Assembly (NCBI GenBank): GCA_021234155.1
Contig: JAJEKV010000005.1
Location: 27,988,689-28,052,688, forward strand
Source of the DNA: Isoetes taiwanensis
Taxonomy: Eukaryota; Streptophyta; Lycopodiopsida; Isoetales; Isoetaceae
Direction of reading: 5' to 3'
Length of the DNA: 64,000 bases
Shown: positions 9,915 to 47,050 of the stretch, piece after piece
Layout of the letters: each line of letters begins with the position of its first letter
Numbering within the stretch: the stretch's first letter is position 1
The notes under the pieces: model-generated
Databases searched by the model: none
Told to the model about the DNA's origin: nothing
What the model saw: only the letters and a program-made list of their open reading frames with translations
Position numbers and translations under genes: made by a program

Positions 9915-11970
9915 TGGTATCAGAGCTTGCATCCGGTTTTGGAGCAGTTGTGAATTTTCAAGGGCTCACTAGGAGGAAAACTTTGTACGTTTTCTCGGGA
10001 TCTGGATATCCAGCTTGGAAGATCAAGGTGGAGCTCGTCCTGCAAAGCGAAAAGCTTTTTGGAGTTGTGACCGGGAATAACCTTCCTTCCGTGCAGCCGG
10101 TTGATGCAGCTACTGGCAATCTTGTTCTGAATGGTGATGCATATGATGCTTGGGTTAAGAATGTAGATGACTGGAATGAAAAAGATCAAAAAGCTCGAGC
10201 ACTGATTCTTTATGCTCTCAAAGAATCCATTTTAATGGATGCTAAGGATTTTGTTACTTCTAGTGAAGTATGGAAGTATTTAGTAAAAACTTATATGAAG
10301 AAGACTATGCATGAAGTGATTAGTCTCCGCAAAGATCTTACATCATTGCAATATCGTTTGGATGATTTGTTTGACGAAGATATGGATAAATTTAAAGCGC
10401 TTTTAGGCCAGAAGAGCTTCAGACTCTTACAACTGTGCTAGCCAATAAAAAATCTATGGCATTAGATCGAGCTTGTGAATCACTAAAAGATGGGGTTCGA
10501 AAGTTGAAAAGGCAAACTATGCATGAAGATCAAGCTTTACTTGTTGATAATAAGAAACGAGGCCGAGAAGATGAAAAGGCCTTTGCTACTGATACAACAT
10601 GCACTCGCAGTCGTAGTAGAAGCTAGAGTCGTGGGGTGATAGACAGCAATTGGCTAGACTTGAGCAACCTAAGTCAGACATTGTTTGTGCCTATTGTAAA
10701 AAGACGAATCATGTTGAAAGCGAATGTTATTATAGACGCTTTGTTAATGAGCATAAAACTTTCCTCCAGGCAATCCGAGATGGACCTCATATTCCAGATG
10801 AACATGCAAGTGTTGCATGTGATGAAGCTTCTAAAGTTGTTTTTTCTAGAGGAGTTGTTTGTTTCCATGACTATTGATTACGGTGCAACACAGCACATGA
10901 CTTTTCATAGGCATTGGTTGAGGGATTACCGCCCACTTTGAGTTCGCAAACTTGTGTTTCTTGGTGATAACACGACCCATGAGGTCAAAGGCATTGGAGT
11001 TTTTCATGTCGATACTTCCAGTGGTGTGCAAGTCTTGCGTGGCGTCTTACATGTGCTTGGTTTACGCCGAAATCTTATCTCTGTGTCTAGACTTGCTGAT
11101 TTTGCTCTATCCATACAGTTTAATGGACGATTGTGTAGATTCATCCAAGATGGATTGTACTTGAAGTTGCCCCGAGAGAAGGTCGTCTCTACGAGCTTAA
11201 ATTGACTGATGATTTTGTGAATATTATGACTGCCAATGGAGATGAATCAAGTACACGTGGCATTGTTGTTTTGCACATGTTGACTTCCAATATTATTGGA
11301 TATGGTCTCTGATGGAACCGTGGATGGTCTATCATTGAGTAGCACTGCATCAATGGGTATATGTGAGGCATGTGCTGTTGGGAAGCAACATCGCTGTTCT
11401 TTCAATGTAAAAGGAAAACATGCAACACAGCCTTTGGAGCATGTGCATGCTGGTATATATGTGGCCCACTACCTTGTGCTTTGAGTGGTGCATGATACTT
11501 CATCTTGTTTGTAGATGATTTTTCCCGTAGAGTTTTTGTATATTTTATCTCTACGAAGTCCCAAGTCGTCACCAAATTCCAAGTGTTTAAAAGTATGGTG
11601 GAGACTCGAATTGGCAAAGTGATCAAGAGAATACGCACTGACAATGGTGGGAAATTTACCTCTGCTCAATTCAAGTGTTTTTGTGAAGAGCATGGTATAG
11701 CTTGTGAGCCTACCATCACTTATTCCCCTCGGCAGAATGATATTGTTGAGCATCAGGAACATGCGATAATCAGTGTTGTTTGATGTATGCTTATCCATGC
11801 TGGTTTGGATAAGTCATTTTGGGCAGAAGCTGTGGCTACTGCTGTTTATGTGCATCGTATAGGTCTGGGGAGCGTCACAAGTGAGTATTTATTGTCTTGT
11901 TGTGTCCTACTTGTTCGTCACAGTCTTGAGTTTTTAGAGATGGGATCACCCACATTCATTATATTCTGAA
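9915..11970 (+). mobile_element. truncated Ty1/copia retrotransposon, decayed
   Basis: Domains appear in copia order: gag (9914-10626, Ser/Arg-rich at its end), a CCHC knuckle 'CAYCKKTNHVESEC' near 10690, a protease site read as 'DYGATQHMT' near 10875, the pre-integrase zinc region ('CEACAVGKQH', 11365) and the integrase core ('FVDDFSRRVF', 'RTDNGG', 'NDIVEHQEHA', 11505-11780). Reading frames change several times and there are internal stops. The sequence is lost shortly after 'SFWAEAVATAVY' (about 11,900), before any reverse transcriptase. The gag ATG overlaps the primer site, so a downstream start is more likely. The part 11155-11805 reappears inverted at 46.4-47.05 kb. Confidence 0.85.
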
Positions 11971-12119
11971 ATAAGCTTTTGTCTTCTGCCACTAAAAATG
12001 TTTCATGTGGGTTGACCTGCCTCCAAACATGTATCTTGAAAGATCTATGGTTTTAGTGGTGAAAGAGATTTAGCTACATTTTTGTGCTTGTATCCATCTT
12101 TAAAATATCTTGAATAACA

Positions 12120-13260
12120 TATCGTGACATGACATATAGAATAGAATAGAATAGAATAGAATAGAATAGAATAGAATACATTAATGTCCCTTGTGCCGTA
12201 AGGCCTCTGGACTTGTGTAGCATGGGCGAGCTCCCTAAAAGGTGCTACTAGCACATCACGCTGTTATAATGTAGCCTTTTCTGAAGGCTGACTTTTTTCT
12301 TTTAATACCGGCATCCCGCTTTACCTCGACTTCTTGGCCGTGCAGTGATGCGTCGTTATCAATCAGCTTTTAGCTGAGCAATTTGTGTGAGGCTATATGA
12401 CCCGTTTTGTACGGATCATATTACAAGCCCTCTTTCAGCGTGTACTTCTCGTAATGCGGTCGTCATTCTTTGGATTGCGTCGCCAAATCCGTAATGATTA
12501 CGTCATCTTCATCGGCACATTAATGCTTGGTTCCCCACCTTATATTCCTATATGCGTCACGATGTCTCGTAGATCGGGCGGTCATTAATCATATGGTTCT
12601 CATCCTCTATTCTCCCCGTCCACCGGATTACGCATATCACGTCCTCCTTGTCTACCCCTCTCCACTGTCTTTTGATTCTTAGATCATGACTTCCCATCCC
12701 GAACACGGCGGTATGTCCCTTACGTTTTCCCCAATATGTTATCCGGTATATCTAGTGTCCTATTTGTTGATCCGGATTAAAAACTTGTAACGAGCAGGTC
12801 TGTCTTGGGTCATGTATGTCTTTTGACCATGCTCTTGTCATTTGTGTCGCCCCTCCTCATTCCTTTGCCCCTCTTCTATTAGGTCACTTTCGGGTTTAAT
12901 CCCATCCAATGCGGTCCATGTTGCCACCTTCCTAAACCATCCAATGCTTTTCGAGGATGTGTGATTTTTCTTGACTTCGGTGATTGCAATGCTTTGGGCG
13001 GTTTCCCTTGTATGTCTCAGCGTTGTCTCGGCGGTACCTTATGGTTCTCTCCCATGCTCTCACTTCCATCGGTTTTTTGCCTTGTTTGAGAACTATGATT
13101 GTTAGCGGCGTGTTTGTCCTTACCACAATTCACAATGCATTACCTTTGCCTAAAAATTCCTTCTGCTTTTCCCGGTTTCTTTACGTTAAGCCGGCCCCCA
13201 TGCTTACGCTCCATAACCGAGTGGTGGCTATCGCTGCTAATGAATAGATAACATTTGATG
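12120..13260 (-). mobile_element. LINE 3' fragment with (ATTCT)n tail
   Basis: On the minus strand, a frame at about 12,690-12,560 reads 'RQWRGVDKEDVICVIRW' and then 'EDENHMINDRPIYET'. This resembles the C-terminal zinc motif of plant LINEs (C..C, E.E.H, CP.Y) with cysteines lost. Downstream the element ends with CTTACGGC, GGACATTAATG and about eight ATTCT repeats (12137-12178 on the plus strand). No reverse transcriptase motif is legible, so it is old or 5' truncated. The pentamer tail supports target-primed insertion. Confidence 0.5.
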
Positions 13261-14050
13261 TCCCAATCAGTTATTCTACTTCTGTTACAGAAGTTTTTCA
13301 TGTTAAAGTAGCTTCCTATAGCTGATTGGAATCTGGCATTAGCTCCTTTGGCCCATTTCCCTGTGCCATGCGCATCATAACCTAGATACCTGTATTCTGT
13401 TGCTTCCTCTATCTCTTTATCTTTATATCTGAAAGGTTTATGCCTGTTCTTATGTCCAAAGATGACTATCTTTAGTTTTTTGCTATTTTATAGCAAAGGT
13501 TCCATGTCTGTTTTCCACATAGATTATCTCAACCTTGAGCAACTAATTATTTCATATTATTCTGACTCCGAGGCCACTGTTAATATTGATTTCCAAATTT
13601 GAGCCCCCTTATTAAAGGTTGTATTTATGAAGGCTATGCCAATAAAAATTCTGGAAGATAATCATTTCTTGCAGATGGCACACTTATGAACCCTCCAGAC
13701 AAGTTGAATCTTTCATGTGATCAGTTTATGCTTTCCAGATATAAGAGATTATTGAATTTCTCGTTTTGGTCAAAGTCTTTTATCATGATGGATACCTTTC
13801 ACGCCTATGTAAAACCAGTTTCGTCATTCAAAATTAGTAGAGTTTTGCAAGCAACTCGTTGATATACAGTACCACAACCTCAAGTTAGCTTTTGTTCTCT
13901 CTTTGAAGTATCGCAATAATGCAAATATTTAGAAGGGTACTTATTGGACATGAGAAAAAAAAGCCTTTACTAGAAGGCATATCTCTTTTATGCCGATGCT
14001 TAGAAGAAAAACTTGCTCATTTCAACTCCAAAAGAGGACGAGTACCCGTT
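13261..14050. other. spacer, absent from the second arm
   Basis: No recognisable gene is present. A 63-codon ORF at 13919-14110 has no known relatives that I can see. The stretch, with the adjacent LINE and copia end, is missing from the inverted copy at 46.4 kb. Confidence 0.35.
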
Positions 14051-14051
14051 C

Positions 14052-15730
14052 GGTTCTTCATATATCTCTCTGACATCCAAGAGTTTTATACTTGTTGGAA
14101 GCTACTATAATACTTCAGTTTGCCATCTAACATCTGTTGACTCTGACTTGTTTGAAAAGTGACCTCTTTACGTGCTTCTTGATTGTGCACAATGTTCTTC
14201 TAAGCGTTGCCAAGTCTGTCATTATGTAGATAACTAGAAATCATGACATTTCAAGAACTATTCTTAACTTAGTAGATTTGTCTAGTACTATTTGCAGACA
14301 AACTTAAAACAAGATATGTTGTTTCAATACCTGCTTGCTTGAAGCCAACGTACACTTGCCATAGGTCACATTGTCAACCTAGACATTTTTTCTGCAGAAT
14401 GTTTAAAAATGTTGCAGGTATAATGTCCTTTATTTGAACATTTTCATCTTTCAGGGTGCTCTATCAGAATAGACTGTGGACGTTAAAAAATCTATTCTAT
14501 TCTATTTTCATTAGTAATTGTCTTCAACACTCGTGTTGTAGTACTTGATGCGCATCCGCTGGGATGAATTAAGCACAGAGGAAAGGCATCAAATGGCCTG
14601 CATGGTCATTGATATGGTTCAAACTTTTGTGAAACCTGATGAGATTCCATTTGGCAATGGAAACATTTGGATTCTTGCTTCTAGATGGCACATCTTATCC
14701 TCCAATTATGTTTTGCATCACTACAATGAGTGACTATTAATGTGGCATGTCATCTGGATGTGGTAAATCTTGCTTTTTCAGACAAGTCATAATATTTTAC
14801 TGCTTCCTGTTAGGTTGCAAGAAGAGAAAGGCCACCCATTTGGAAGGACATGATGTAAACACTCTTTCAACTCGGTAGCAACACTCCCGCTCATGTAAAG
14901 GTTATGTTTTCGCTTCGCGTCATAAATTGTCACATTTCATGTAAGCAAGTTGTTTGTAACTGGTGAAGAATCTCTTCTTTAGTTATCTTAATTCATGTAG
15001 CATGTGATTCAATAGGTTGAAATAGTTGCCATGGTTCTTCATCGGCTTCCTAAAGATGTGACTGTTCATAATGAGGATCTAAAAGGTGAAAGAACTATTT
15101 TGTTTTTAGACAAACAAATATGGTCAAGTACATCGTAGATGCTTAATGTTATTCTTGGTTGCAGGTGAAAGGTGAAGGCAATTATTGCACGGGTTGGCAC
15201 AAAGCCTGTCTGAAACATTACCATTCCTGTACAAAGTAGCCAAGTTGTTGCTTTTTGTAGCTATCCTCATTTAGTTTGCTATATTCAGAGGAATTTTTTG
15301 AACTGCAGCTTTTGGATCTACACTTTACTTCAGCAAGGATAGCAGCCCAACAAAACCAATTAGAGTTAGCAAAAGAACATGCCTCTTTGGTGACAGCTGC
15401 GCTTGATGCACTCTTTGCTTATGTGGAATGGATCCCCCCTGACAGCAATGGCCCGCTATGGCATTATTGAGGCGTGAGCCTTAGTAAAATATAAAGCACT
15501 ATATTCAAATGAAGAATGAATGTAAAAAGATCGCGTAGGATCTGAGATTGTTTTGTCTCTTGCTACCAGCTGTGGCATTCTTTTGGGCTCATTGGAATTT
15601 CGGTTGGCTGCTTGTAAGTTTTTGAAGCACATTGCATCTAGATATGCTGTAATGTCCGTTAATTCATTTAAACGCATCATATGATTTCTGAAAATTTTCT
15701 CCTCTGCAAAGAACCCACTTAAGAGACTCA
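14052..15730 (+). pseudogene. HST: HASTY/exportin-5 pseudogene, arm 1
   Basis: Several exon remnants with intron-like spacers match HASTY, the plant exportin-5 that moves microRNAs. Near 14550 'IRWDELSTEERHQMACMVID' precedes 'VQTFVKPDE'. Near 14810 'VARRERPPIWKDMM' fits the segment after 'AALVAEIVRRE'. At 15020-15090 'VEIVAMVLHRLPKDVTVHNE' is the most telling match. At 15170-15240 and 15290-15470 come 'QLELAKEHASLVTAALDALF' and 'AYVEWIPP', and near 15590 'SLEFRLAACKFLKHIASR'. The order agrees with the N-terminal third of HASTY. Frameshifts, stops and a roughly 56-base deletion after 'PDE' kill it. A short LINE-tail insertion lies at 14,476-14,505. Identification is from remembered family features and should be confirmed by alignment. 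Confidence 0.72.
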
Positions 15731-15839
15731 ACAAGATGAATGTATATATACAAGAAATTTAATGCGTCCTACGGCGCATTGTTCCAGTTTTAGCATGTTC
15801 TTACGGTGCAAGGCCCTGTCATGCTCTAGATAACCAACG

Positions 15840-16600
15840 ATTCTACTGAGATTCTCTTGTGATTCCTCTATATTCTTCAACATTCTTGTACTATATTTAG
15901 CATTCATGAAGATTCCCCTAGATTCTCTTAGAATCTTCTATTTTAATTGAGGTGCTTACCCATGAGCATTTAGAACCTTCCAAAATAATCTATTTTGGAT
16001 CTGTGCAACATTTCTAAAACACTTTCTATTTTTAGACTGAGGCGCTTGCCTGAGCATCTAGAACTTTTTTTTTTCAAGATTTATATTGTACACCTTTATT
16101 ATGAAACATTTTAGAACATTCTATTGTGGCTCTTTGCAAAATCTTAAAAAAACTCTAAAATTTCATCAAGATTTTCTTAGATTCCCTTAGATTCAACTAG
16201 ATTTTAAGAGATTCCCTTAGATTTGTAAATATTTTCCTAGATTCTCATATAATTTATGAGATTTCCTTAGATTCCCTTTAATTCTCCTGGATTCGCTTAC
16301 ATTCTAGAAATTTCTAGACTATTCTAGAACTTTCTGAAACATTCTGAAACTTTCAAGACATCCTAGAACTTTCTGGAAGTATTTCCCTATTCCCTTACAT
16401 TCCCGAAGATTCCCCTACATTCTAGAACTTATTAGAACAATTTGGGACTTTCTGGAAGGATTCTCTTAGATTCCCCCTAGATTCTCTTATATTCCAAAAC
16501 ATTTTAGCATTCTGGAACTTTCTAGAACATTCTAAAAGATTTTAGAACTTTCTAGAGCTGCCAGAACATTTTAGAACTTTCTTGAACTATCTAGCATACA
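15840..16600. repeat. AT-rich degenerate repeat with TTCTAGAA motifs
   Basis: About 760 bases are made of drifting 10-14 base units such as 'agattcccttagattc' and 'ctagaactttctagaacatt'. Many units form TTCTAGAA or TTCTGGAA, identical to inverted nTTCnnGAAn heat-shock elements. With this base composition such motifs may arise by repeat expansion alone. Confidence 0.6.
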
Positions 16601-16794
16601 CATCATCTTCCGAAGCAAAACCCAATGCTTAATTGCAGCAGTTAGTGGAATCACAGAAAACAACGGAAGTTTTAAATCATTCAACTGGATTGGTCAGCTT
16701 CTAACTTCCAGGCATCAATTGACGCCAGTGGAATCTCACCCTTAATTAGAACATTACCTTAAGTATAATTGAAATATAAGTTATTCATGGAATT

Positions 16795-16860
16795 AATGCT
16801 TGGTCTAGTGGTTAAAATGGGGGTTGGGGGTTGATGACCGGGGTTCAAATCCCTCACAAA
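16795..16860 (+). mobile_element. tRNA-derived SINE head
   Basis: The sequence TGGTCTAGTGGTTA (box A like) is followed about 30 bases later by GGTTCAAATCCC (box B like), the internal pol III promoter layout of tRNAs and plant SINEs. The 3' part does not complete a tRNA cloverleaf and runs into unrelated repeats, so it is a SINE remnant and not a tRNA gene. Confidence 0.5.
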
Positions 16861-16960
16861 ACATAAAAATTTTAAAAGCCTTTCCTTAAGGGACGAGCAT
16901 TCAACATAAGCCTTAGGATCTTACACTCGATCAACGATCGAGGTCTCACCATATAAAAGC

Positions 16961-17650
16961 AACATGAGCCGTAGGATCTATTACATATAATTCCCAAAGC
17001 CATGTGGACCGTAAGATATGTGCCAAGCCACCTGAGCCGTAGGATCTCGGATCGACGATCGGGATCAAGAGCAACCTGGGCCGTTAGATCGATTACATAT
17101 AATTCCCAAAGACATGTGCAACGTAGGATATGTCCCCAAGCAACATGAGCCTTAGGATCTCGGACCGATGGTCAGGATCAAATCAACCTGGGCCGTAGGA
17201 TCATCTATACGGATCTATATATAAACTCCCAAGCCATCTGGGACGTAGGATACGTCCCTAAGCCATATGAGCCGTCGGATCTCGGATTAATGGTCGGATA
17301 AGCGCAACATGAGCCGTAGGATCTATTACATATAATTCCCAAAGCCATGTGGACCGTAAGATATGTGCCAAGCCACGGCGAGCGTAGGATCTGCGTATCG
17401 ACGATCGGGATCAAGAACAACTGGGCCGTTAGATCGATTACATATAATTCCCAAAGACATGTGCAGCGTGGGATATGTCCCCAAACAGCGTGAGCCTTAG
17501 GATCTCGGACCGATGGTGGGGGGATCAAATCAACTTGGGCCGTAGGATCGTCTATACGGATCTATATATAAACTCCCAAGCCATCTGGGACGTAGGATAC
17601 GTCCCTAAGCCACATGAGCCGTCGGATCTCAGATTAATGGTCGGATAAGC
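16961..17650. repeat. 345-base tandem duplication of GCCGTAGGATC units
   Basis: The blocks 16,961-17,305 and 17,306-17,650 align along their whole length with few differences. Each holds about seven shorter units centred on 'gccgtaggatc' or 'gacgtaggatacgtc', alternating with 'attacatataattcccaaag' and 'ggatctcggaccgatggt'. The open minus-strand frame through it is an accident of the duplication. Confidence 0.75.
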
Positions 17651-17692
17651 GCGACAAATATAAGAACATATATAGGGAGATTAGATATACAC

Positions 17693-18469
17693 ATCTACTT
17701 TTTAGTGACAAAAAATGAGCAAAAGTACTTTTGTTGTTGTGGATTGGCTATTATGCTAAGTATAGGTGCAAATATGCCCAATCAGCAATTGTGTTTCAAC
17801 CATTATTTATCTTGGTTGGTGCAGGGCACAATGTTATCAAGATTTGGTGCAAATATGCCAAACCAAATGATGTGTTTCGACCAGGTGTACAATATTGTTT
17901 ATCTTGGCTACTACTCGTTTCTTCCTGAAAGGATTAAAATAAATCTGATGGAGAAAGTATTACCTCATGAAGCGAGGGAGAAAGAAACAAAGGAAAAGAG
18001 AAAATAGGAGTTTATGTATGCCTACCGAGACACATAGGACCTAGGACCAACCAACTAAGTACAATAAGTCTTCAACTTCTAGGGGCATTCTCCTAGTTGA
18101 AACCGCTAGTTAAATCTAGCAAAAAAACAAAAATAGAAAACTTAGGGCTCATCAATGGTTCTGTATCCTATGAGTCCTATGAGCACCCATTAGGGTTTGA
18201 AGAATTCTTGTGATTCTTTGTACATGCAATGGTGCCCTCTCTAACCTATATAGAATAGTTGACACCTTAATAATTGTAAATACAATTATGTCCTACAAGG
18301 AAAACAACACCAAGATATCACTCCCTTTTGTTGTTCCAACCTTAACTTCCACATCATCCTACCCTTCCCATAGACCTCATGGTCTATGAGGATGATAAAA
18401 GTTAATTTAATTCAATTCTATCCTTCTCTCATATCCTTTTCATTCTTCATTCCTTCATCTAGCCTTCAA
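17693..18469 (+). repeat. arm-1 segment matching 43.9-44.7 kb
   Basis: This is the inverted counterpart of 43,883-44,675. It contains a roughly 75-base internal duplication ('ggtgcaaatatgcc.aa.ca') and near 18,365 a LINE-tail-like 'ATAGACCTCATGGTC...GATGATAAAAGTTAA'. I recognise no protein. It may itself be a LINE 3' region. Confidence 0.6.
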
Positions 18470-20678
18470 TCCCTCCTTGCCACAGGGGACATCACACCCG
18501 GGCAGTGGGAACAGTACTGCGGCGGCTGACTCTATGACCCGCCCGGGGGCAGCGTGCGCCCATACCCCCGGGATGGCCCCCCATTGGTTCTCGTGGGCCG
18601 AGGATGTTGAGGAGGGCACGCAGCGGCTAGCTAATGGGAAGGCGGTGACCTCGATGGTATGCAAGCCGAAGTTACTCAAGTGGGCGCAGGCGGTGGCTTG
18701 TCTTCTGGTCCTCACTACCACTGTTCCAGCGAGCATTGCGGGGAGGGTTTCCCCGACAATGGACCCTGGCGGGGTTGTTCCCATTCAGAAGCGAGGCGAC
18801 CCACACCTTTGTCCAATTATACAGGACGATCATAGTCAGTTCGGTATTTGCCAAGCTGGCTGGCCGCATTCTCAGCGGCAGTTGACCGGTAGTAGGCGTG
18901 GATATGCCACCCTCACAGGCGGGCTTTCGACCCCCGCCACTCAACGATTGACCATATCTTTACGCTGCGGGCGATTGAAGGCAGTAGGAATCACCATTTG
19001 GACTTGTATTCTTTGCTTTGTGGATTTCGCAAAGGCTTTTGATCTGATCCGGGGGAAAAGTTGTGGGCTAAATTGCGTCAAGCTGGGGCTCCCATTGCAC
19101 ATGCGAGGAATGCAATATCTGGGTTGTATGAGAGTTGTTTTGGCGGGATGCGGTCGGCGGACCAAGCATTTTACGGTGGTATCGGGGTCGGCGGGGTTGC
19201 CCCTCTCGCCAACACTTTTTGGCCTCTACATTGATGGATTAGGGGCCGGCTTCATCGAGCATGGGGGATGGCATACAACTTTTGCACTGGGTCATCGCCG
19301 GCTCATCTATGCGGATGATGTTGGCTTTCTTGGCCCACACGGAAGCTATTTGATCTCACACGGATGCCCTAGACACATTTTGTCGCTCTGAGACATGCAC
19401 GTCAATCCGCCAAGACCGGGGTGGTTCTCATATCCTCTTCCGTCACCCCATGCCTCTGCACTCACATATCGGATACCAGGCCAGGCGTCCGCCTACCTAA
19501 AGTACCTGGGGGTGGAGTTCCCCTCCTCGCTCTGCTGAGGGCGTCTATCGCTGCGGGTGACGGTGGCTGAAGCGCTTTATGCAATGCTGAGAACAGTCAC
19601 CGTGCAGAGCTATATGATTGGGGCCATCGGTCACACCGTTCGCACCGGGTCGAGCACAGTCGCTCCTTCTATCACGAGGTCGAGGTTTTAGGCCGGTCGT
19701 CTCTTTGGCGACTGGAATGACTTAGGCAGTGCGAAGGCATTTTGCCGCGGCGCAGGGTGAAAACCGGTCCCTATCGGTCTACGCTGCGGAAGCTGGATTC
19801 TTGCGCTTGGTGGCAGCCCTTGATAGACACATCGTCTATTTTGAGTAAAGTGGTTACTATGGGTGGCCTTTCGGCTCCACTTTTGGCTAATCTGGGCCAT
19901 GAGTCCTTGTGGCGGCTTAGAACTGTTGGGAGGAGGAGATGGAGTGGTTCGCCCGGATGGAACGATGCGAGAACCTGATGCGCGTCTGGTAGCGGCTGAT
20001 CGCGGATATTTTGGGGAGATTACCTAGATGCTTGTTTCCTTGGCAAGCTCGGGACCCCATTGCTCTGGGCGCAGGTCAAAATGGCCCATTACAAGGAGCA
20101 CATCAACCCGTGTTGGCGGGGCCCGCGGCTCTACACACCGCGTTCCAAACGCCGAAAAGTTTGAGGCTCATTGCCTCCATTAGCCGCGGTGCCCACCATC
20201 TTCGCGCTCGAGGCGAGGCGGTGGATTGGGGAACCCCGCCGGGACGAACTCTGTCGGTCTTTGTCAAAGCGGGTGCCATTGAGGATGAGTCTCACACTTT
20301 CGAGTTGCCAGTGTTCCGGTGGTCCGGGCGAATCGCTCCTTAGATGCGGTGGGCGTGCCCTTGGCGATGAACACCGCCGTCGATCGCGCCACGGGGTCCC
20401 ACATCCGGAGGTGCCCTGGACTGCTTGAGTCACCTTGCCCCACCGGGTCCGTGACTAGGCACTGGGGGTGGTGCATGATTTGTATATATTGGGATGTTTT
20501 ACGCATTTTATATGATTACGGTTTGTCGGGGTGATTGCTGCCACGGTTTTTCCTCGAAAACCAGCGGTGGGGGTTTTTAATCGGGGCAAAATCCCGCTTG
20601 CTGCGTTTTTGTATTGGGTCCCATAGACCGATTGGTCTCCGTGGACGATAAAAGTAACTTCCTTCCTTCCTTCCTTCC
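18470..20678 (+). mobile_element. LINE retrotransposon with reverse transcriptase
   Basis: An ORF at 18477-19391 carries reverse transcriptase motifs of a non-LTR element: 'RLANGKA' upstream, 'FVDFAKAFDLI' with the first catalytic Asp, 'GLPLSPTLFGLYIDGL', and 'YADDV' with the catalytic Asp pair. Frameshifts are evident between 18,650 and 18,950. Further on, near 20,260, 'VKAGAIEDESHTFELPVF' fits the C-terminal zinc motif of plant LINEs. The 3' end has a hairpin (20,538-20,555), 'GGTCTCCGTGGACGATAAAAG' and a (TTCC)n tail at 20,659-20,678. No endonuclease or ORF1 is seen, so it is 5' truncated. It sits where the other arm has the 6.8-kb DNA transposon. Confidence 0.85.
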
Positions 20679-37066: not shown

Positions 37067-37083
37067 CCCGGGGGGTTCACCTC

Positions 37084-37430: not shown

Positions 37431-37431
37431 G

Positions 37432-37707: not shown

Positions 37708-37720
37708 AGCTATATAATCC
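37708..37720 (+). promoter_or_regulatory. putative TATA box of the 102-codon ORF
   Basis: GCTATATAAT lies about 85 bases before the ATG at 37,796, a sensible distance for a plant promoter with a short leader. The leader is a pyrimidine-rich 'ctccatctccttc' tandem repeat. Confidence 0.45.
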
Positions 37721-37795
37721 GACCTCCATCTCCTTCTACTTCCATCTCCTTCGACCTCCATCTCCTTCGCCTTCTACTTCTTTCAATCTGTCGGA

Positions 37796-38104
37796 ATGGC
37801 CCGGACCAAGACCACTGCCAAACGCCGCCTGGATGAATCTGTCGGATCCGGATCTGGATCCGGTTCTGACTCCGACCCTTCCGAGCATTCTGGCGGTTCT
37901 GGCACCACAATGAAAATTGTGGCTCGATTTACCTGTGCAGAGGTGTCTCGCTTGCGAGAAATAGGAGCTTACCTTTCTGAAAAGGTTTTGCAGTGGGTTG
38001 ATCAGGTGCATGTCAATGAAGAGCGACTGTTGGAGATGAAAATTTTTGCTGAAGACAATGAACTGTTCGTGGAGCTGAAGATGCCTCCTCCTGGACACGT
38101 CTAG
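37796..38104 (+). CDS. 102-residue transposon ORF, histone-H3-like N-terminus
   Basis: This intact ORF has a TATA-like box, a pyrimidine-rich leader and a clean stop. It begins 'MARTKTTAKRRLDES'; after Met removal the first four residues, ARTK, equal the N-terminus of histone H3, followed by T-T-A-K in place of Q-T-A-R-K. An acidic Ser/Gly/Asp linker (about residues 15-38) and a predicted helical domain follow ('TCAEVSRLREIGAYLSEKVL', 'NEERLLEMKIFAEDNELFVE'). There is no histone fold. It lies inside the transposon opposite to the transposase gene, so it may be an accessory protein of the element or a captured host gene. The match to H3 is short and could be chance. I do not recognise the C-terminal domain. 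Confidence 0.6.
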   Translation: MARTKTTAKRRLDESVGSGSGSGSDSDPSEHSGGSGTTMKIVARFTCAEVSRLREIGAYLSEKVLQWVDQVHVNEERLLEMKIFAEDNELFVELKMPPPGHV

Positions 38105-38797
38105 TGGCTTGTTCCCCTTCTTAGTATCCTAGGTTTTTGCTTTCACGGCTATGTATATGAAATCCCCCGGGCTCCTTAACTTATGTTGTGAACAAGTCTG
38201 ATGTAAACTTTTGGCCCAGATATTTTTTTTTGTGAATGAAGGCCTATATGTAAACTGGCTTGGGCAGCTTGTGACGGTTCCTTTTTATGCGAATCCCATG
38301 TGAATACATAATATGATATGATATGGTTTCTGAAATTTTGTCTCTTGATTTCGTACAGTCTCTTGGTTTCTGAAATTTTGTCTCTTAATTTTGTCTCTTG
38401 ATTTTGTTTAGAAGTATAGTCTGTAGGAAAAATCGTGCAGTTATCATATGAAATCTCTTTTTTCTATTACTTAGACAGGAAATTAAAGATCTGTAGTTAG
38501 GGTTTAGGGTTATTCATTTGATACATCAGATCAATACAGTGCCTTACGAGCTGTGTTTAAATGTTTATAACCCTTAAATGTTCATGCTTAAATCAGTGTT
38601 TAGATGTTAAAATGTCCATGTAATAGTGTTAATGCTTTGCTAAAAATAATTGCATACCTCTGTTTGGTTTTCAGAAGGAAAGATACAAGTGCAGGCAGCC
38701 ATTTTTCAGCAAGACCATAAACTTTATAAAGCATATGAGTAACCATTGTTTATGCCTTAAACACCCTTAAGTAGGATCACAATCACAAGTAAAACCC
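38105..38797. other. transposon spacer between the two genes
   Basis: The 3' flanks of the convergent ORFs meet here. A tandem 'tggtttctgaaattttgtct' repeat lies at 38,325-38,408, and two adjacent TTTAGGG-like units near 38,495. Nothing else is recognised. Confidence 0.4.
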
Positions 38798-41700
38798 TTA
38801 AGTGTTTTGAACATAACGTTTAAGCAAACAGATTGTTAGTAGCAGACTATAACCATTTAGTGGCCCTAATGACATGGCTATCCTACCATTATTTTGCTCA
38901 CGTACAAACTTATTCAGTTGTACCCTATCATTATCATGCAGATGGTAAATGTTTTTGGCAGGGTCATATTTTAAACATGCAAGGGATATGATAGACTCAA
39001 GGTCTATGAGTCTATTATCGGTTAGATCGTATGTAAACCATATGGACTTGGCATCCTTGCCAACGTGTTTTCTGTAATATGCTAGATTTAGCTGAACTTC
39101 AAAGGAAGGGCGTTTAACCAAGTCCACGGGCTCTCTACTCTCTCTCCACGCACTGCCAGACTTCCTCCTCATGCTCAATACCCTTCCAAGGTACCAAACC
39201 TTTTGAATTGACACAGATTTCTGCTTCTTTTTGGCTGTAGCATGTCTAGTCTGTGGTACCACCATTTCTTCCACAGGTTCTTCAAAGTAGACCGCACAGT
39301 CTATTCCAATGCCTAGTAGAGTCAGTGCATTAACATTATTTTCTTCAATTGAATATACCAAAGTCCTAACTCTCGTCAACCTATCCTTCGAAAGCCATGG
39401 GTTTCCATTCAAATGACTTACAATGGTTGACTTAAAGATTCGCTTCCCTTCCATCTCAACATGCCAAGATATATGAGAGGGCTTTTTCCTTTCACATTCA
39501 TCCAACATTTCATCAAATACATGACGTAATTAAGAGCTGGCCACATCAGCCTCACTTACTACTTCTTCACCTTGAGGCTCCGTGCTCTCTTCCACAACAT
39601 CGGTCTCATCTCCTACAATGTTAGAACTCAAGTCTAGCGAGAAATTACTTTTAAAGCAATCCTCAAATTTCCATGGTTCATTAAACCATGGATCAGTGCC
39701 CGTGCATGTAATACCGACACTCTCGCACAATTCTTGTGCAGCAGTAAGCCCTTCCTTTAAAGCAGCAACAATCTTCTCGTCCGTATCCACGCCACTATAA
39801 TCTGCAAGGTCACAGTTCATCACTTTTACCATCAGTATTTACCTTTTTTTCTAACTCCTGCCAAATGTGCTCTTGCTTGACGTGAGTTGCCGGAAATAAG
39901 AGGGTCGTGGCAGCCTGAAATTCAGAGATATGATTCAAAGCAGAGGCACGTTCCAACAAGTCTGCCCCATCATACGACCTTTCATTACGCACCATGCCAC
40001 CCACTTTGGAGAAGAAGTTTTCGCACACGTCCGATCCTGTGCACTGTAAGGGCAACTCTAGTTGCCCAAATTTATCCCTGAAATACTTAATGAGCAGCAC
40101 AACAAAATGACATGACAATTGCACATCTATGAAGGTTTCCCGACTAATGAAGTTTGTACTCAACGAATACGTGCTTTTCAACCATAGCCTCCAATGTCTG
40201 TTATGAACAAGAGCTTGAATCATTAGCAAATTCCCAGAATTTCAGTTAACAATCCAAACTAAAAGAAGCAAAAGCTATTCTTGCACACCTAAAAAAAAAG
40301 GAGACTGTTGCAGCAGCCTTAACCCTTGCTCTCAGGTCCATAGTAGGTGACAAGAAGATGTCAATATAGGTCGCCACAATTTCCAAATAAACTTTTGTCC
40401 CCAAATTCCGAGCTGGTGGGCCTGCAGTACCATTTCTGAGGTCGTCCAAGCACCCTTGAACCTTTCTAGAGGCAAGGCGTTGGGCCGCTTCACATCTCCA
40501 AGTTCCAACCCATGCCTCCCTTGGCATAACTCAAAGACATGGTGTATGTCATTAAGAGTGACTAGCTCGTTCCCTAAGTACAATCTTCTAAATGCACTGT
40601 CCAACGGATTAACAAGCTTCTTGCCATTGTGCACGAAATCTTGATCATGCAGCCCATAAACATCATCATTAATTGAGCCACTTAAAGGCCAACCAATCCA
40701 TGGCACTTCAAATGTAGAGTCCTTAGAGCCCTTTGATGTGTAGTCCTCAAACATGCATGCTCTTCGTCTTGAATCTCCATTCGAGCTGTGGCCGATTAGA
40801 GGGCCAACAACCATTCTCAAGTGTGCATTCCACAACTCCTGGATTCGGTTCCACTGACGTCTTACTTCAAGGTGATCGAATCTATTACACGTAAGAATAA
40901 TAGCAAGGACAAGCTTGGGCAGCTTCTTGTGCAAGGGGTTTACAATAAGAACTCTTGCATAGTGAGAAATCACATTCTCCTCGAGGGCCTTCGTAATGAC
41001 ATTGTAGCCCTCTTCATTGCAGCCAACAATCACCTCAAAGGTGCCATTGCAGACATGTCCTTCCTTCTTTCCACAAAAGCCAAGTAAACAATCATCTCTA
41101 GGAATCCAACGAACAGCCCTCTTCACCACGGTCTCATCCTCGGCCACAATTGCTGGAATTCCACCCAAATCAAGCTGCTGGCGTTGCATGTGTCAAGAAT
41201 ATGAGCAAGATGCTTGAATGTGTCTTCCCTGATACCGACTTTGTAAAAGAAGCTTTCTCGTGTAGAGCGCATCGTCGTGGACATACTTGGGCCTGCAAAG
41301 TTTAGAGAAAGAAAATTGTGCATTCTTCTCCCTCCCCAAATCTTTATTGTTTCAAACAATGCTTTCGTGGTTTCTCTATATCTTCTTTTATGGCCAGGTC
41401 TGATTATGTTTTGAGCTATGTCCCTTAAAAAATCCCACAAAGCTGGCCTACCACTAAATTTTCCTTGCCGATGTGCCTCCACTATGTCTTGGCAAAATCT
41501 GTTCACATCCTTTCTGTTCATGGACTCCTCCAAACTTCCTTTAAGTGACCTTTCCTTCATTGACAATGCCACAACTCTCATTCGGGAAAACATTAACTCT
41601 GCTTTCAACTTCCTTATCTCAGACCCAGCAGATCTAGCCATTTTTTTAACCTCTATGCTATTCAGATAATCTGATCTAATACGTAATTTAGTAGTTCTAA

Positions 41701-43429
41701 GTCCCCTTGCTACCTTATCATCAGTTTGCCTATGCACTCTCATGTAAAAATCTTTTTCCTTCGGAATAGCAGCACAAAGTGAACATTGATAATTAACAAA
41801 GGGTTCACCACTAAGGCTAATCCTCTTGCACTTCGTATGCCTAAACGTGCCACTTCTGTCCAACCACTAATGTATGCTGCAATGTAGGTTCACAATACCA
41901 TTTTGTTCCCATTTTCAGCTCATGCAGAAAGGGTCTTAAATCCTTGGCTTTATCTCCATACTTCCCACCATACTTATATTTGTTTTGCCAAAAGCCCCAA
42001 CATAGTAAAGCCAAAGATGTTTCGTTGGGGGAAAGACAACGAAGTCTAAATAATCTACAAACTTACAATACAATAAATGTTACAAAGAAAGTTTTGTTTA
42101 CTCCGTGAACTATTACTTGATGATGCTTGGCTGCTTTCGTAGATGGAGGGTCACGCAAAAAACAAGGCAAAGTAAAAATCAGTGAGAAAAACAACGTGGA
42201 GGAGGTAAAGGAGCAAAGTAAAAATCAGTAAGAAAAACAAGGTAGAATATGAACACTTGTAGCAAACAAAATGTAGCGACCCTTTGCAAAAACTTAAGCA
42301 AATTCCTTGATTCGGGTCCAGTTCAACAGATTTCTTGGGCCCACCTCTTGTTCTTTGCTCATCTGAATCCTTCTCAATATTCATGACGGCATGCACGTGC
42401 CTCTTTGAGAGAATATGGTCTTTCATATGGCCAATGAGACTTCAGATTTGGGAAACGACTCAAGGAGCCTTTCACACATGACACAAATGATAATGAATGT
42501 CTTCAACACTTACAAATCCACCAATGGTATTCTCGTAAAAAGCTCGAATACTCTAGTTTCCTCTTGAAACTTTGCAATGGCAGTAAAAACGACTTTCAAC
42601 TAGAGCTTGGTTCTCTTTGGACACATGCAACTCTTCCTCTTCATTACAAGGCTGATCCTCCTTTTCCTCAATCTGCGGACCCCGGCAGACCCTTTTCCTC
42701 AAGCTTGAGGTTACTCTCATAATTCTCAAAGATGACCCTTGGAATTTAGATGGTTGCGTTCAAAGTTACACATGGTATTATCTCCACCTTTCCATACTTC
42801 TTTTCACATTCAATACACCAAATAGAAAATCTTGCTTTACCATGGACATCATAAGAGCACAATTCAAACTGTCCTTTCGATTTCTTTGCTTCAACTTCAC
42901 GCTCAACTTCTTCCACGGCATGTTGCCATCGGCAACATCAAATTTAGTTGCTAACTTGGATAGCAAATTTTGCCCTGCTGAATTCAGATCGCACATCATC
43001 TAAAAAGGAAGCATTTTCAACTAGATGGAGTTCATCATCGTTTACCTCTTCATTGGTGCGATCCTCGGCTATGACAGTTTAGTCTATCATCACAAATTGG
43101 TGATTTAGAGATGCAATGCTTTCAAGCTGCAAAGTCCTTTGCCTTTTATGTGCATGCTCCCCAACCACCTTGATAGTAATCTCGTCAGTAGAAACCTTAA
43201 ACCTTAGCTCCTACCTTGGTGTGAAGGCCACTTCCCTATCTTCAAGAAATACAAATTCTTTTTCATCCTCTAGCAACCCGTCCCGTCTTATTTCGTTTCG
43301 TACATCCACATAAGTGCACTCGTGGGAGACGATGAAAAGGCCAAGGCCAGTCACAACTCCACACCCATCATTCACCTTGATGACTACTGTCTTCTCCATT
43401 TTTGTCAACCTGCAAATAAGAAGCATCAA
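38798..43429 (-). pseudogene. decayed transposase gene of unknown superfamily
   Basis: Overlapping open stretches of 236, 100, 139, 93, 285 and 246 codons tile 38.8-41.86 kb on the minus strand, with shorter pieces to 43.43 kb, where 'MEKTVVIKVNDGCGVVTGLG' could be the start. Near 42,420 'HILSKRHVHAV' after 'CVMCERLL' suggests a zinc-finger DNA-binding part. The middle holds 'IPAIVAEDETVVKRAVRWIP', then 'LLGFCGKKEGH', possibly the first acidic catalytic region of an RNase H-fold transposase, then 'GLHDQDFVHNGKKLVNPLDS', 'YLEIVATYIDIFLSPTMDLR' and 'QCTGSDVCENFFSKVGG'. The C-terminal part has 'VWYLGRVLSMRRKSG' and 'WFTYDLTDNRLIDLESII'. Only a few frameshifts (near 41,170, 40,500, 40,240 and 39,820) separate the pieces, so it died recently. 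P-like or another DDE family is possible. Confidence 0.65.
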
Positions 43430-43882
43430 ATGTTAGAGCAGAAATATGCAGACCCGAAAACTTCTAGAAAGGACCGAAATGGAGGCATGGGAATCTCAGC
43501 AACAAAACTAAACAGACGAATCCTCAGCAATGTCTTCTGCGTTTCAGAAAAAAGTACTTCTAATCCGTTGATAAGAAACTATAAAAACAGGTTTTGTGAA
43601 GCAAAAACTGTACAAGGAAAAAAAATTTCAAAACATAACTCCGGAAATGCAAGCACCCTTAAACGTATCTGTCCGGCATTGATCAAAGAATCTAAGCCCC
43701 CTTAACGTATTTCTAGGTCCCTCCACCTGCAGCGAAAGCGCCCTGAAACCGTGGATATACAGCAGGTCCGGCGCCAAAATGTAAGACGCTCCTTAGGTAT
43801 ACGTACTTGAAAATGTCAAAAAAACCCCTTCATCGCCCACGCACATGTTTTGTACGGAAAAACAGGGTGAACCCCCCGGGGG

Positions 43883-44675
43883 TTGAAGGCTAGATGAAGG
43901 AATGAAGAACGAAAAGGATATGAGAGAAGGATTGAATTGAATTAAATTAACTTTTATCGTCCTCGTAGACCATGAGGTCTATGGGAAGGGTAGGATGATG
44001 TGGAAGTTAAGGTTGGAACAATAAAAAGGAGTGATATCTTGGTGTTGTTTTCCTTGTAGGACATAATCATATTTACAATTATTAAGGTGTCAACTATTCT
44101 ATATAGGTTAGAGAGGGCACCGTCTGCATGTACAAAGAATCACAAGAATTCTTCAAACCCTAATGGATGCTCATAGGATACAGAACCATTGATGGGCTTT
44201 ATCACTAAGTTTTCTATTTTTGTTTTTTGCTAGATTTAACTAGCGGTTTCAACTGGGAGAATGCCCCTAGAAGTTGAAGACTGTTGTACTTAGTTGGTTG
44301 GTCTTAGGTCCTATGTGTCTCGGTAGGCATATATAAACTCTTATTTTCTCTTTTCCTTTGTTTCTTTCTCCCTCGCTTCATGAGGTAATACTTTCTCCAT
44401 CGGATTTATTTTAGTCCTTTTAGGAACAAACGAGCAGTAGCCAAGATAAACAATATTGTACACCTGGTCGAATCACATCGTTTGGTTTGGCATATTTGCA
44501 CCAAATCTTGATAACATTATACCCTGCACCAGCCAAGATAAATAATGGTTGAAACACAATTGCTGATTTGGCATATGTGCACCTAATCCTGACTTAGCAA
44601 TATAACCAATCCACAACAACAAAAGTACTTTTGTTCGTTTTTTTATTTTCTGTAATATGTCACTAAAAAGTAGTC
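43883..44675 (-). repeat. arm-2 copy of 17.69-18.47 kb
   Basis: It matches arm 1 from 'ctagccttcaa' to 'actttttagtgac' with scattered substitutions and a few small indels (for example a 'tctgtaatat' stretch absent from arm 1). Confidence 0.8.
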
Positions 44676-46400
44676 TCTTAAGTTGGTTCTTTGCAGAGGA
44701 GAAAATTTTTCAGAAATCATATGATGCGTTTAAATGAATTAACGGACATTGCAGCATACCTAGATGCAATGTGCTTCCAAAACTTACAAGCAGCCAACCG
44801 AAATTCCAATGAGCCCTAAAGAACGCCACAGCTGGTAGCAAGAGACAAAACAATCTCAGATCCTACGTGATCTTTTTACATTCATTCTTCATTTGAATAT
44901 AGTGCTTTATATTTTATTAAGACTCACGCCTCAATAATTCCATAGGGGGCCATTGCTGTCAGGGGGGGATCCATTCCACATAAGCAAAGAGTGCATCAAG
45001 CGCAGCTGTCACCAAAGAGGCATGTTCTTTTGCTAACTCTAATTGGTTTTGTTGGGCTGCTATCCTTGCTGAAGTAAAGTGTAGGTCCAAAAGTTGCAGT
45101 TCAAAAAATTCCTCTGAATATAGCAAACTAAACGAGGACAGCTACAAAAAGCAACAACTTGGCTACTTTGTACAGGAATGGTAATGTTTCAGACAGGCTT
45201 TGTGCCAACCCGTGCAATAATTGCCTTCACCTTTCACCTGCAACTAAGAATAACATTAAGCATCTACGATGTACTTGACCATATTTGTTTGTCTAAAAAC
45301 AAAACAGTTCTTTCACCTTTTAGATTCTCATTATGAACAGTCACATCTTCAGGAAGCCGATGAAGAACCATAGCAACTATTTCAGCCTATTGAATCACAT
45401 GCTACATGAATTAAGATAACTAAAGAAGAGATTCTTCACCAGTTACAAACAACTTGCTTACATGAAAGAGAAAACATAACCTTTACATGAGCGGGAGTGT
45501 TGCTACCGAGTTGAAAGAGTGTTTACATCATGTCCTTCCAAATGGGTAGCCCTTCTCTTCTTGCAACCTAACAGAAAGCAGTAAAATATTATGACATGCC
45601 TGAAAAAACAAGATTTACCACATCCAGATGACATGCCACATTAATAGTCACTCATTGCAGTGATGCAAGACATAATTGGAGGATAAGATGTGCCATCTAG
45701 AAGCAAGAATCCAAATGTTTCCATTGCCAAATGGAATCTGAACCATAGGCCTCTGCCACTCAAGTGCTGCTATTTGGCTCTTCATCGCCCACTGCTCATC
45801 AGGTTTCACAAAAGTTTGAACCACATATCAATGACCATGCAGGCCATTTGATGCCTTTCCTCTGTGCTTAATTCATCCCAGCGGATGCACATAGTACTAC
45901 AACACGAGTGTTGAAGACAATTACTAATGAAAAGAGCACAGTCTATTCTGATAGAGCCCCCTGAAGATAGATGAAAATGTTCAAATAAAGGACATTATAC
46001 CTGCAACATTTTTAAACATTCTGCAGAAAAAATGTCTAGGTTGACAATGTGACCTATGGCAAGTGTACGTTGGCTTCAAGCAAGCAGGTGTTTTTTTTTT
46101 TTTTTTTTGAAGAACTGTGTCATCAATATATTAAAAGAACAACATATCTTGCTTTAAGTTTGTCTGCAAATAGTACTAGACAAATCTACTAAGTTAAGAA
46201 TAGTTCTTGAAATGCCATGACTTCTGGTTATCTACATAATGACAGACTTGGCAACGCCTTTGAACAATCAAGAAGCACGTAAAGAGGTCGCTTTTTAAAC
46301 AAGTCAGAGTCATCAGAATGTTAGGTGGCAAACTGAAGTATTATAGTAGCTTCCAACAAGTATAAAACTCTTGGATGTCAGAGAGATATATGAAGAACCA
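44676..46400 (-). pseudogene. HST: HASTY/exportin-5 pseudogene, arm 2
   Basis: This is the inverted counterpart of 14,052-15,730. It retains 56 bases lost from arm 1 that encode 'QWAMKSQIAALEWQRPMVQ', the segment matching the 'EWALKSQTAAL' stretch of HASTY; this strengthens the identification. It has its own lesions: a frameshift in the 'IDMWFKLL' region and a 50-base insertion ending in about 18 A's (46,089-46,138). It lacks the 2.25 kb that separates the copia fragment from the HASTY part in arm 1. As both arms have private deletions, neither is a direct copy of the other's present state. Confidence 0.72.
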
Positions 46401-47050
46401 GCATGGATAAGCATACATCGAACAACACTGATTATCGCATGTTCCTGATGCTCAACAATATCATTTTGCTGAGGGGAATAAGTGATGGTAGGCTCACAAG
46501 CTATATCATGCTCTTCACAAAAACACTTGAATTGAGCAGAGGTAAATTCTCCACCATTGTCAGTACGTAATCTCTTGATCACTTTGCCAATCTGACTCTC
46601 CACCATACTTTTAAACACTTGGAATTTGGTGAAGACTTGGGACTTCGTAGAGATAGAATATACAAAAACTCTACGGGAAAAATCATCTACAAACAAGATG
46701 AAGTATCGTGCACCACTCAAAGCACAAGGTAGTGGGCCACATATATACCAGCATGCACATGCTCCAAAGGTTGTATTGCATGTTTTCCTTTTACATTGAA
46801 AGGACGGCGATGTTGCTTCCCAACAGCACATGCCTCACATATACCCATTGATGCAGTGCTACTCAATGATAGACCATCCACAGTTCTATCAGAGACCATA
46901 TCCAATAATATTGGAAGTCAACATGTGCAAAATGACAATGCCATAGTGTACTTGATTCATCTCCACTGGCATTCATAAGATTCACAAAATCATCAGTCAA
47001 TTTAAGCTCGTAGAGACGACCTTCTCTCAGGGCAACTTCAAGTACACATA
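46401..47050 (-). pseudogene. copia integrase fragment, arm 2
   Basis: A 172-codon open stretch carries 'FVDDFSRRVFVYSISTKSQV', 'RLRTDNGGEFTSAQFKCFCE' and 'NDIVEHQEHAIISVV', the integrase core with D, D and a recognisable third acidic region. It is better preserved than arm 1 (GGE kept, where arm 1 reads GGK). Upstream is the pre-integrase zinc region ('CEACAVGKQH'). Homology to arm 1 starts near 'tgtacttgaagttgcc' (47,050). Confidence 0.85.

Follow-up and report, generated by a model that had tools for sequence, protein, structure and literature searches.

A transposon-rich locus of Isoetes taiwanensis with at least three inverted and direct copies of one segment

When two arms of a genomic segment lie close together in opposite orientations and differ throughout, do they record one inverted duplication? 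The window, the whole stretch of 64,000 nucleotides of Isoetes taiwanensis DNA analyzed here, raises this question, since it had been read as a single inverted segmental duplication whose arms were remodeled independently. We found that the segment is indeed duplicated, with one copy inverted and the arms remodeled independently, while the two-copy history is not upheld.

Inverted blocks within the window

BLASTN of the window against itself recovered the predicted blocks in the predicted order and inverted, with E-values from 0 to 4e-126. The features are listed below; copy 1 is arm 1 of the original prediction, and S1 and S3 are copies of a sequence termed S.

9724..11854, plus strand: truncated copia of copy 1 (from alignment), with gag (PF14223) at 9899-10438 and the integrase part from 11156
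11880..18481, plus strand: HASTY-fragment repeat of copy 1 (blocks B and C), collinear with a dispersed 4.6-kb element (L041+L013+L042)
12140..13488, no strand assigned: insertion in copy 1 by comparison with the dispersed relatives, its ends overlapping by about 5 bp, within the stretch deleted from arm 2
15750..17690, no strand assigned: 2-kb repeat block of copies 1 and 3, with a 112-bp tandem repeat at 16956-17644
18482..20660, plus strand: LINE-like insertion with a (TTCC)n tail, in copy 1 only; empty site in copy 3
20661..20950, plus strand: block D of copy 1, which forms the 3' portion of the HASTY-fragment repeat and matches element positions 4214-4455 at 68%
20951..22507, no strand assigned: foldback of copy 1, a near-complete palindrome with arms of about 0.75 kb and a loop of about 6 bp
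23705..31065, plus strand: S1, most of the spacer, an inverted duplicate of 68949-76299 (S3) past the window
31066..35342, no strand assigned: stretch from S1 to the arm 2 foldback, with repeats and a CAP/PR-1-like ORF; not in copy 3
35343..36790, minus strand: arm 2 foldback plus roughly 120 bp of flanking sequence in common with the fragment at 53.9-55.3 kb
36791..37066, minus strand: block D of arm 2
37067..43878, minus strand: 6.8-kb DNA transposon with inverted termini CCCGGGGGGTTCACC, in arm 2 only; empty site in copy 3
43879..46399, minus strand: blocks C and B of arm 2
46396..47046, minus strand: block A (copia integrase) of arm 2, its outer edge at 47046-47049 inside copia
53905..55346, plus strand: fourth copy, partial and more divergent, with the foldback loop, one arm, the 3' end of the repeat and flank
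55347..55591, plus strand: first part of copy 3 (HASTY fragment), which resumes at 64975, past the window end
55592..64000, plus strand: LTR retrotransposon in copy 3, ending at 64974, with a 5-bp target-site duplication, TCTTG

Identity within each of blocks A to D was 92 to 97% with gaps excluded. Block A (11156-11805 versus 47046-46396, inverted) matched at 95.7% by BLASTN, block B (14052-15728 versus 46399-44672, inverted) at 88.1% with gaps and 47 substitutions in 1,620 sites, and block C (17710-18473 versus 44643-43879, inverted) at 92.4% with gaps and 35 substitutions in 752 sites. Block D with the left foldback arm (20672-21220 versus 37066-36486, inverted) aligned at 85% with gaps, block D by itself having 20 substitutions in 266 sites between arms 1 and 2, and the right foldback arm (21716-22385 versus 36195-35501, inverted) aligned at 76%. 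In copy 1 the foldback, which is nested in the HASTY-fragment repeat and has unusually divergent arms, is self-complementary at 76% across 20962-22413; no target-site duplication was recognized by eye in the foldback flanks. Because the foldback family recurs at 53.9-55.3 kb, a foldback match by itself is not evidence of duplication; the junction between block D and the foldback, common to the copies, is such evidence.

The copia label given to block A was borne out by PF00665 in arm 2 and by PF14223 gag to the left of arm 1, while the one arm 1 frame scanned (11155-12400) yielded no family. We aligned the copy 1 copia to six dispersed copies (L003 to L008, of which L005 spans only 10764-11854), and because copia extends to the left of block A, the edge at 11156 is the edge of arm 2. 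Blocks B, C, and D, counted among five separate items in the original prediction, are one dispersed repeat that carries a 5' gene fragment of HASTY, an exportin of the miRNA pathway, and that holds the nested foldback. For the HASTY label, none of the six frames of block B matched a Pfam family; the label is supported by the linkage of relatives to exportin-5 exons. No exportin was matched by Pfam in 11880-15760 (three plus frames), in 11880-13600 (three minus frames), or in the dispersed relative L012 (six frames), and PDB searches with the HASTY exon gave nothing convincing. A single HASTY locus has, in its 5' region, 344 exact 21-mers in common with arm 1 and 298 with arm 2. Across all of these Pfam scans the sole matches were two to unrelated families, both at chance level.

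Pack-type and Helitron elements capture gene fragments, and the HASTY-fragment repeat resembles them in being dispersed and 4.6 kb long and in having apparently intron-bearing HASTY 5' sequence, CTAG near its 3' end, and T-rich flanks; unlike them, it has no clear target-site duplication. Helitrons have a 5' TC, a 3' hairpin plus CTRR, an A/T insertion site, and a helicase in the autonomous partner; in the repeat, by eye, the 3' CTAG is present, a 5' TC was not seen, and the hairpin is weak. In copy 1 the repeat is broken by the 12140-13488 insertion and by the 2-kb block. We considered a 106-bp stretch at 18268-18373, missing in L013 to L017, as an insertion common to the local copies and discarded it because the stretch and its neighbors also occur on other contigs. 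Block C ends in 230 bp that also occur as a short repeat elsewhere, with matches of up to 92% on further contigs.

Copies beyond the window and their relationships

Past the window end, the two arms turn out to belong to a set of at least three copies. Copy 3, in direct orientation relative to arm 1, occupies 55347-55591 and 64975-68924 in window coordinates, and the fourth, partial copy abuts it directly. The spacer, predicted to be unrelated, has no match to blocks A to D within the window, but most of it is duplicated in inverted orientation at S3, outside the window; a copia at 25496-30240 in S1 is nested at the identical place in S3. The main inverted repeat thus pairs arm 2 and the spacer (23.7 to 47.0 kb) with copy 3 and the flank of copy 3 (55.3 to 76.3 kb), arm 2 with S1 and copy 3 with S3 lying in opposite orientations on one assembled molecule. 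The 31066-35342 stretch was probably deleted from copy 3. Taking segmental duplication to mean collinear homology across several different elements, over more than 1 kb and at about 90% identity or more, we found copia, the repeat, the foldback, and S in order at 88 to 97% with gaps, and a substitution-based identity of 92 to 97% in blocks A to D and S. Among the 40 of 138 genome candidates that were scored, block C had three full-length copies, each at 92% or more and all at this locus, the other matches being partial (81 to 86% for longer ones, up to 96% for shorter ones); among the 40 scored of 1,615 candidates, full-length matches to 23705-25495 were at the locus only.

By sequence comparison, the sister of arm 1 is copy 3, not arm 2. 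A tree rooted with seven dispersed or parental sequences had the form ((1,3),2) with a bootstrap value of 100, and copies 1 and 3 share 15 derived substitutions, compared to 1 for copies 1 and 2 and 0 for copies 2 and 3. Pooled substitutions were 79 of 3,045 sites (2.6%) between copies 1 and 3, 129 of 3,288 (3.9%) between copies 1 and 2, and 66 of 1,459 (4.5%) between copies 2 and 3. The tail of block B alone runs counter to the tree in divergence, with 2.7% between copies 1 and 2, slightly below the 3.2% between copies 1 and 3, and it supports the tree by only 4 shared derived changes to 1.

Divergence between the two LTRs of the copy 3 insertion is 3.1% (by BLAST with gaps included) to 3.6%, which equals or exceeds the divergence of copy 1 from copy 3. 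Because this insertion must be younger than the copies, yet its LTRs diverge as much or more, the copy divergences are no clean clock, and that of the foldback arms is wholly off it. Between copies 1 and 3, 16% of sites differ in the left foldback arm, compared to 1.6% and 3.8% in blocks C and D; the foldback changes fall essentially all on the copy 1 branch and are concentrated in G+C-rich patches. Divergence between S1 and S3 is a mosaic, from 0.4 to 6.8% per 500 bp, with a variance-to-mean ratio of 3.36 compared to a maximum of 2.11 in 2,000 permutations. This mosaic suggests gene conversion, and given it, the copies look like the recombination substrate that they had been proposed to be.

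Insertions and deletions specific to single copies

The LINE, the 6.8-kb transposon, and the 9.4-kb LTR element each inserted into a single copy, and for each of them another copy has the empty site. The 6.8-kb transposon is thus confined to arm 2, as predicted; of the content assigned to arm 1 alone, the LINE is specific to copy 1, whereas the 2-kb block is also in copy 3. The LINE label comes from a sub-threshold RVT_1 match (E = 0.0074). For the 6.8-kb transposon, the boundaries are ambiguous by a few bases, the target-site duplication is not clear, and the four ORFs scanned gave no family above the cutoff. The copy 3 element combines its 5-bp duplication with TG...CA ends, LTR stretches at 55887-56588 and 64274-64974, and the motif TGGTATCAGAGC, which we take to be the primer-binding site; the first 295 bp of its 5' end are without a reported counterpart at the 3' LTR. 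The 12140-13488 insertion has an RT-like ORF (13143-13487), seen by eye only and without a Pfam match.

Differences between the arms had all been attributed to insertion. Two are instead deletions from arm 2, one shown by outgroups and one probable; the remainder are insertions. The pieces that arm 2 lacks are best read as microhomology deletions. At its A/B junction, outgroups reveal a 2.2-kb deletion with a 4-bp GGTT microhomology. At the site of the 2-kb block, arm 2 also lacks about 28 bp of ancestral sequence, with a 2-bp CT microhomology, and the block, which is shorter in copy 3 than in copy 1, was probably deleted from it; as a counterpoint, the block is missing from all six dispersed relatives aligned at the site, as it is from arm 2.

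Proposed history and rival explanations

We consider it probable that the locus is a local, multi-step segmental duplication reshaped by deletions, insertions, and exchange between copies. The duplicated unit would have comprised the truncated copia, the HASTY-fragment repeat with its nested foldback, the 4-kb stretch, and S. We infer that inverted duplication of this unit would have produced arm 2 with S1 and copy 3 with S3, and that direct duplication of the left part of the copy 3 lineage would then have produced copies 1 and 3. Later, arm 2 would have undergone microhomology deletions and gained the 6.8-kb DNA transposon, copy 3 would have lost one foldback arm and the 4-kb stretch and gained the LTR retrotransposon, copy 1 would have gained the LINE, and S1 and S3 would have undergone gene conversion. 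As the most likely mechanism we tentatively favor replication-based template switching near the foldback palindrome, giving it somewhat less than an even chance, because three of the observed junctions fall in or beside a foldback.

If the window is viewed alone, the blocks and their order also fit a single inverted duplication that gave arms 1 and 2, with every difference an insertion in either arm, but the third copy, the tree, the duplicated spacer, and the ancestral sequence missing from arm 2 make that history very improbable. We give the least credence of all to a history in which the HASTY-fragment repeat, as a single transposon family, inserted independently each time without segmental duplication: blocks B, C, and D are indeed part of a repeat that is dispersed elsewhere in several copies, and the end of block C recurs on other contigs, yet copia outside the repeat is common to copies 1 and 2 and the S flank to copies 2 and 3, the foldback is nested at the same place in copies 1, 2, and 3, and the dispersed matches are partial, the long ones at 79 to 86% compared to 92 to 97% among the local copies. 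Allelic haplotypes or misjoined nanopore contigs set side by side could leave copies only 2.6 to 4.5% apart in what is apparently a nanopore assembly, built with miniasm, optical-map scaffolding, and gap filling (PMC8566536). We hold such an artifact to be quite improbable, since edges, deletions, and nested insertions differ among the copies, the compared flanks have only short dispersed repeats in common, the divergence is a mosaic, and the sole N run in 264 kb is at 148110-148209, with none in or near the copies. As far as the copies themselves are concerned, the earlier dismissal of an artifact holds, but the arm 1 foldback may owe its excess divergence to one. A nanopore base-calling artifact on inverted repeats (PMC7229812) would explain the copy 1 foldback divergence, not the junctions; at a second palindrome (32406-32761), compared for this artifact, divergence stays high past the palindrome too.

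The foldback itself might play a larger part. It is unlikely that the palindrome is the engine of the locus, its repeated breaks or replication stalls seeding the inverted and direct duplications and the intact palindrome of copy 1 mutating 4 to 10 times faster than its flanks. A shade less likely is alternative transposition, in which foldback ends on different copies act as a composite transposon and yield inverted and direct duplications. Foldbacks do mark the inner edge of copy 1, occur within arm 2 and copy 3, and sit immediately to the left of copy 3, and maize Ac offers a precedent for both kinds, its reversed-ends transposition giving direct duplications and sister-chromatid transposition being able to give inverted ones (PMC3744419). 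However, arm 2 homology continues past the foldback into flank and S, the copy 3 breakpoint is inside the foldback loop rather than at a terminus, and by eye no target-site duplication was recognized at the ends of the foldback or at the outer edges, and neither a foldback nor a duplicated target at edges 47046 and 23705/76299. The locus is like the maize Ac system in having duplications beside inverted-repeat transposon ends and unlike them in that no target-site duplication or transposon termini were recognized at its edges. We also considered that S might represent the terminal inverted repeats of some giant element, since in sequences C922 and C996 relatives of S occur in convergent pairs separated by about 25 kb; past the S match, the two members of the C922 pair have at least 108 bp in common with each other and not with S1.

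Local transposon-rich segmental duplications with inverted copies are a known kind, and this locus is an instance of it, ordinary biology for a transposon-rich plant genome. It is like them in that both inverted and direct copies are packed into 65 kb and carry nested transposons, deletions at microhomologies, and signs of apparent gene conversion, and unlike them only in its particular history and in having some junctions at a foldback palindrome. Inverted-repeat transposons can also give rise to duplications through fork stalling and template switching (PMC8277862), and those duplications resemble the present locus in their cis location, short microhomologies, and breakpoints inside an inverted-repeat element; here, however, the units are 10 to 23 kb and not enclosed by one transposon, and the microhomologies are at later deletions. 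Possible recent segmental duplications are mentioned in passing in the Isoetes genome paper (PMC8566536). In literature searches on plant template switching and Isoetes segmental duplication we found no published description of the locus, and nothing that combined foldback, inverted duplication, palindrome, plant, and transposable element.

Read from one window, an inverted duplication can be misleading: only the third copy reveals which copy is closest, which arms are the true ones, and which state is ancestral for each difference. The locus also provides an ordered series of transposon insertions in a lycophyte genome. Because two of its HASTY fragments are inverted relative to each other and have 21-mers in common with HASTY, small RNAs that arise from the locus and act against HASTY are a testable possibility.

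Inverted and direct copies at the locus

Comparison of the window with itself bore out the original prediction that blocks of 11.15-22.5 kb (arm 1, or copy 1) recur, collinear and inverted, at 35.4-47.05 kb (arm 2, or copy 2). With gaps excluded, the arms differ at 27 of 650 sites in block A, 47 of 1620 in B, 35 of 752 in C, and 20 of 266 in D, and ungapped identity per 100-bp window is 89-100% in these blocks and 81-93% in the foldback. Because E-values of the block matches range from 0 to 4e-126, there is no room left for chance as their source. Block A is copia integrase sequence, with PF00665 matched in arm 2. Blocks B, C, and D align collinearly with a dispersed repeat (about 4.6 kb), of which three copies on other contigs have 95-97% mutual identity; the foldback is nested in the 3' part of this repeat. 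Block B holds HASTY 5' sequence, apparently with introns: two exportin-5 (PF19273) gene loci each have a relative of B (L011 and L012) 2.7 kb to their 5' side on the same strand, and an open exon within L011 reads like HASTY. Two exportin-5/HASTY loci are found 3.5 Mb apart on one contig (C1018:25382249-25394913 and 21913249-21927427), and six-frame reading of both places stop codons within some matched stretches, which may be intron. The end of block C (18243-18473) is also a short dispersed repeat, with 78-92% identity on at least eight other contigs.

The picture of only two arms did not survive examination of 100 kb on either side of the window: arm 1 recurs in direct orientation to the right of arm 2 as a third copy (copy 3), which begins inside the window at 55347 and runs past the window end to about 68924. 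Its order is block B, a 2-kb repeat block (one tandem unit shorter than in arm 1), C, D, and foldback. A 9.4-kb LTR retrotransposon interrupts this copy; the element has TG...CA ends and a primer-binding site and is flanked by a target duplication of 5 bp. Copy 3 lacks both the arm-1 LINE and the arm-2 6.8-kb transposon and therefore provides an empty site for both, which sit at equivalent positions no more than about 10 bp apart. When four ORFs of the transposon were scanned against Pfam, no family scored above the cut-off.

Features of the locus (window coordinates)
-41795 to -27142 (left of the window, same contig): tandem array of ~3.1-kb units, 94-95% identity
5449-6243: SPARK-domain ORF (PF19160, E 1e-14), a domain found in plant receptor-like proteins
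6426-6526, minus strand: U6 spliceosomal RNA gene or pseudogene (55 bits)
34340-34930: CAP/PR-1-domain ORF (PF00188, E 2e-20), within a stretch absent from copy 3
37067-43878: 6.8-kb DNA transposon of arm 2, inverted termini CCCGGGGGGTTCACC, several long ORFs on the minus strand

Most of the spacer between the arms, which was previously described as unrelated, also proved to be duplicated. In a comparison of a 264-kb region with itself, 23705-31065 (S1) was an inverted match of 76299-68949 (S3), with 3.5% substitutions and 116 gaps across 7222 aligned sites. A copia element is nested at the same position in S1 and S3, and the S relatives on four other contigs (C1089, C922, C996, and C1027) end at that position. 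Arm 2 read outward has the order A, B, C, D, foldback, S, and copy 3 has the same order from B on; thus, the two halves of the large inverted repeat span 23.7-47.0 kb and 55.3-76.3 kb, with a center near 50-51 kb, and arm 1 lies just outside its left end. Probable losses from copy 3 are one arm of its foldback, the 4 kb separating foldback from S, and all sequence to the left of B position 1267; at that position, copy 3 is joined to a partial, more divergent fourth copy of the foldback and flank. Elsewhere, S relatives form convergent inverted pairs ~25-26 kb apart (C922:1317993-1343416 and C996:7491706-7518083).

Relationships and remodeling of the copies

Seven dispersed or parental relatives (L011-L017) were used as outgroups to polarize the B tail and block C. 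Copies 1 and 3 share 15 derived substitutions, compared to 1 for copies 1 and 2 and 0 for copies 2 and 3; the other sites comprise 37 single-copy changes, 7 that were not polarized, and 3 with another outgroup state. Copies 1 and 3 are also sisters in trees (FastTree, 0.997; IQ-TREE, 100). Block C supports this pairing strongly (11 to 0). The B tail does so less well (4 to 1), and by raw distances copies 1 and 2 are the closest there. Pooled substitution differences are 2.6% for copies 1 and 3, 3.9% for 1 and 2, and 4.5% for 2 and 3. The LTR insertion in copy 3 must be younger than the split of copies 1 and 3, yet its LTRs are 3.1% (BLAST) to 3.6% (25/699) apart, so these divergences do not behave as a clean clock.

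The A/B join in arm 2 has a 4-bp overlap, GGTT. All six other copia copies aligned run on 49 bp beyond this join, and sequence missing from arm 2 is present in dispersed HASTY repeats (L013-L016, L018, and L019), so arm 2 has a deletion between A and B. The 2-kb block is absent from all six dispersed relatives aligned at its site, five of which (L011 aligned poorly) retain a short stretch of ancestral sequence missing there from arm 2, and the arm-2 join has a 2-bp overlap. The simpler reading is that a single deletion took the 2-kb block and its flank from arm 2; it is possible that the block was never in arm 2 and that 28 bp were lost at exactly that place.

Mosaic divergence and origin of the duplication

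Divergence between S1 and S3 ranges from 0.4% to 6.8% per 500 bp, with clustering of substitutions that exceeds that of all 2000 permutations and a longest substitution-free run of 420 sites, compared to at most 305 in 300 permutations. Such clustering is expected under gene conversion between the copies; uneven mutation rates are a possible cause of the same mosaic. The arm-1 foldback (20951-22507), the only one of four to keep a near-complete palindrome, is anomalous. Between its left arm and copy 3, 16% of sites differ, compared to 1.6% in C and 3.8% in D, and the copy-3 branch in the foldback arm tree has a length of zero. This excess divergence is concentrated in patches of high G+C (rank correlation, 0.43; P = 0.005; 40 windows), while a control pair gave a rank correlation of -0.16 between divergence and G+C (P = 0.34; 39 windows). 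Nanopore reads are known to be miscalled at inverted duplicates (PMC7229812), and the Isoetes taiwanensis assembly is nanopore-based (PMC8566536), so we favor an artefact over hypermutation of the palindrome. Against an artefact, the fragment at 53.9-55.3 kb, although short of a full palindrome, likewise has a divergent arm (about 20% from arm 2, versus 7.8% [9/115] in the flank). At a second palindrome (32406-32761), used as a test of miscalling, divergence is still high outside the palindrome, which favors neither reading.

These comparisons demonstrate the duplication, the order of its parts in the assembly, the sisterhood, the insertions, at least one microhomology deletion, and the mosaic divergence. 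The first inverted copy may have been made by template switching near the foldback. The support is circumstantial: three junctions fall in or beside a foldback, namely where copy 1 ends on the right, where the foldback meets S in copy 3, and where the partial copy ends on the left. Neither 47046 nor 23705/76299, the outer edges, lies in or beside a foldback, and no target duplication was seen there by eye. The inverted duplication is real, extends beyond its earlier description, and is unexceptional for a plant genome rich in transposons.
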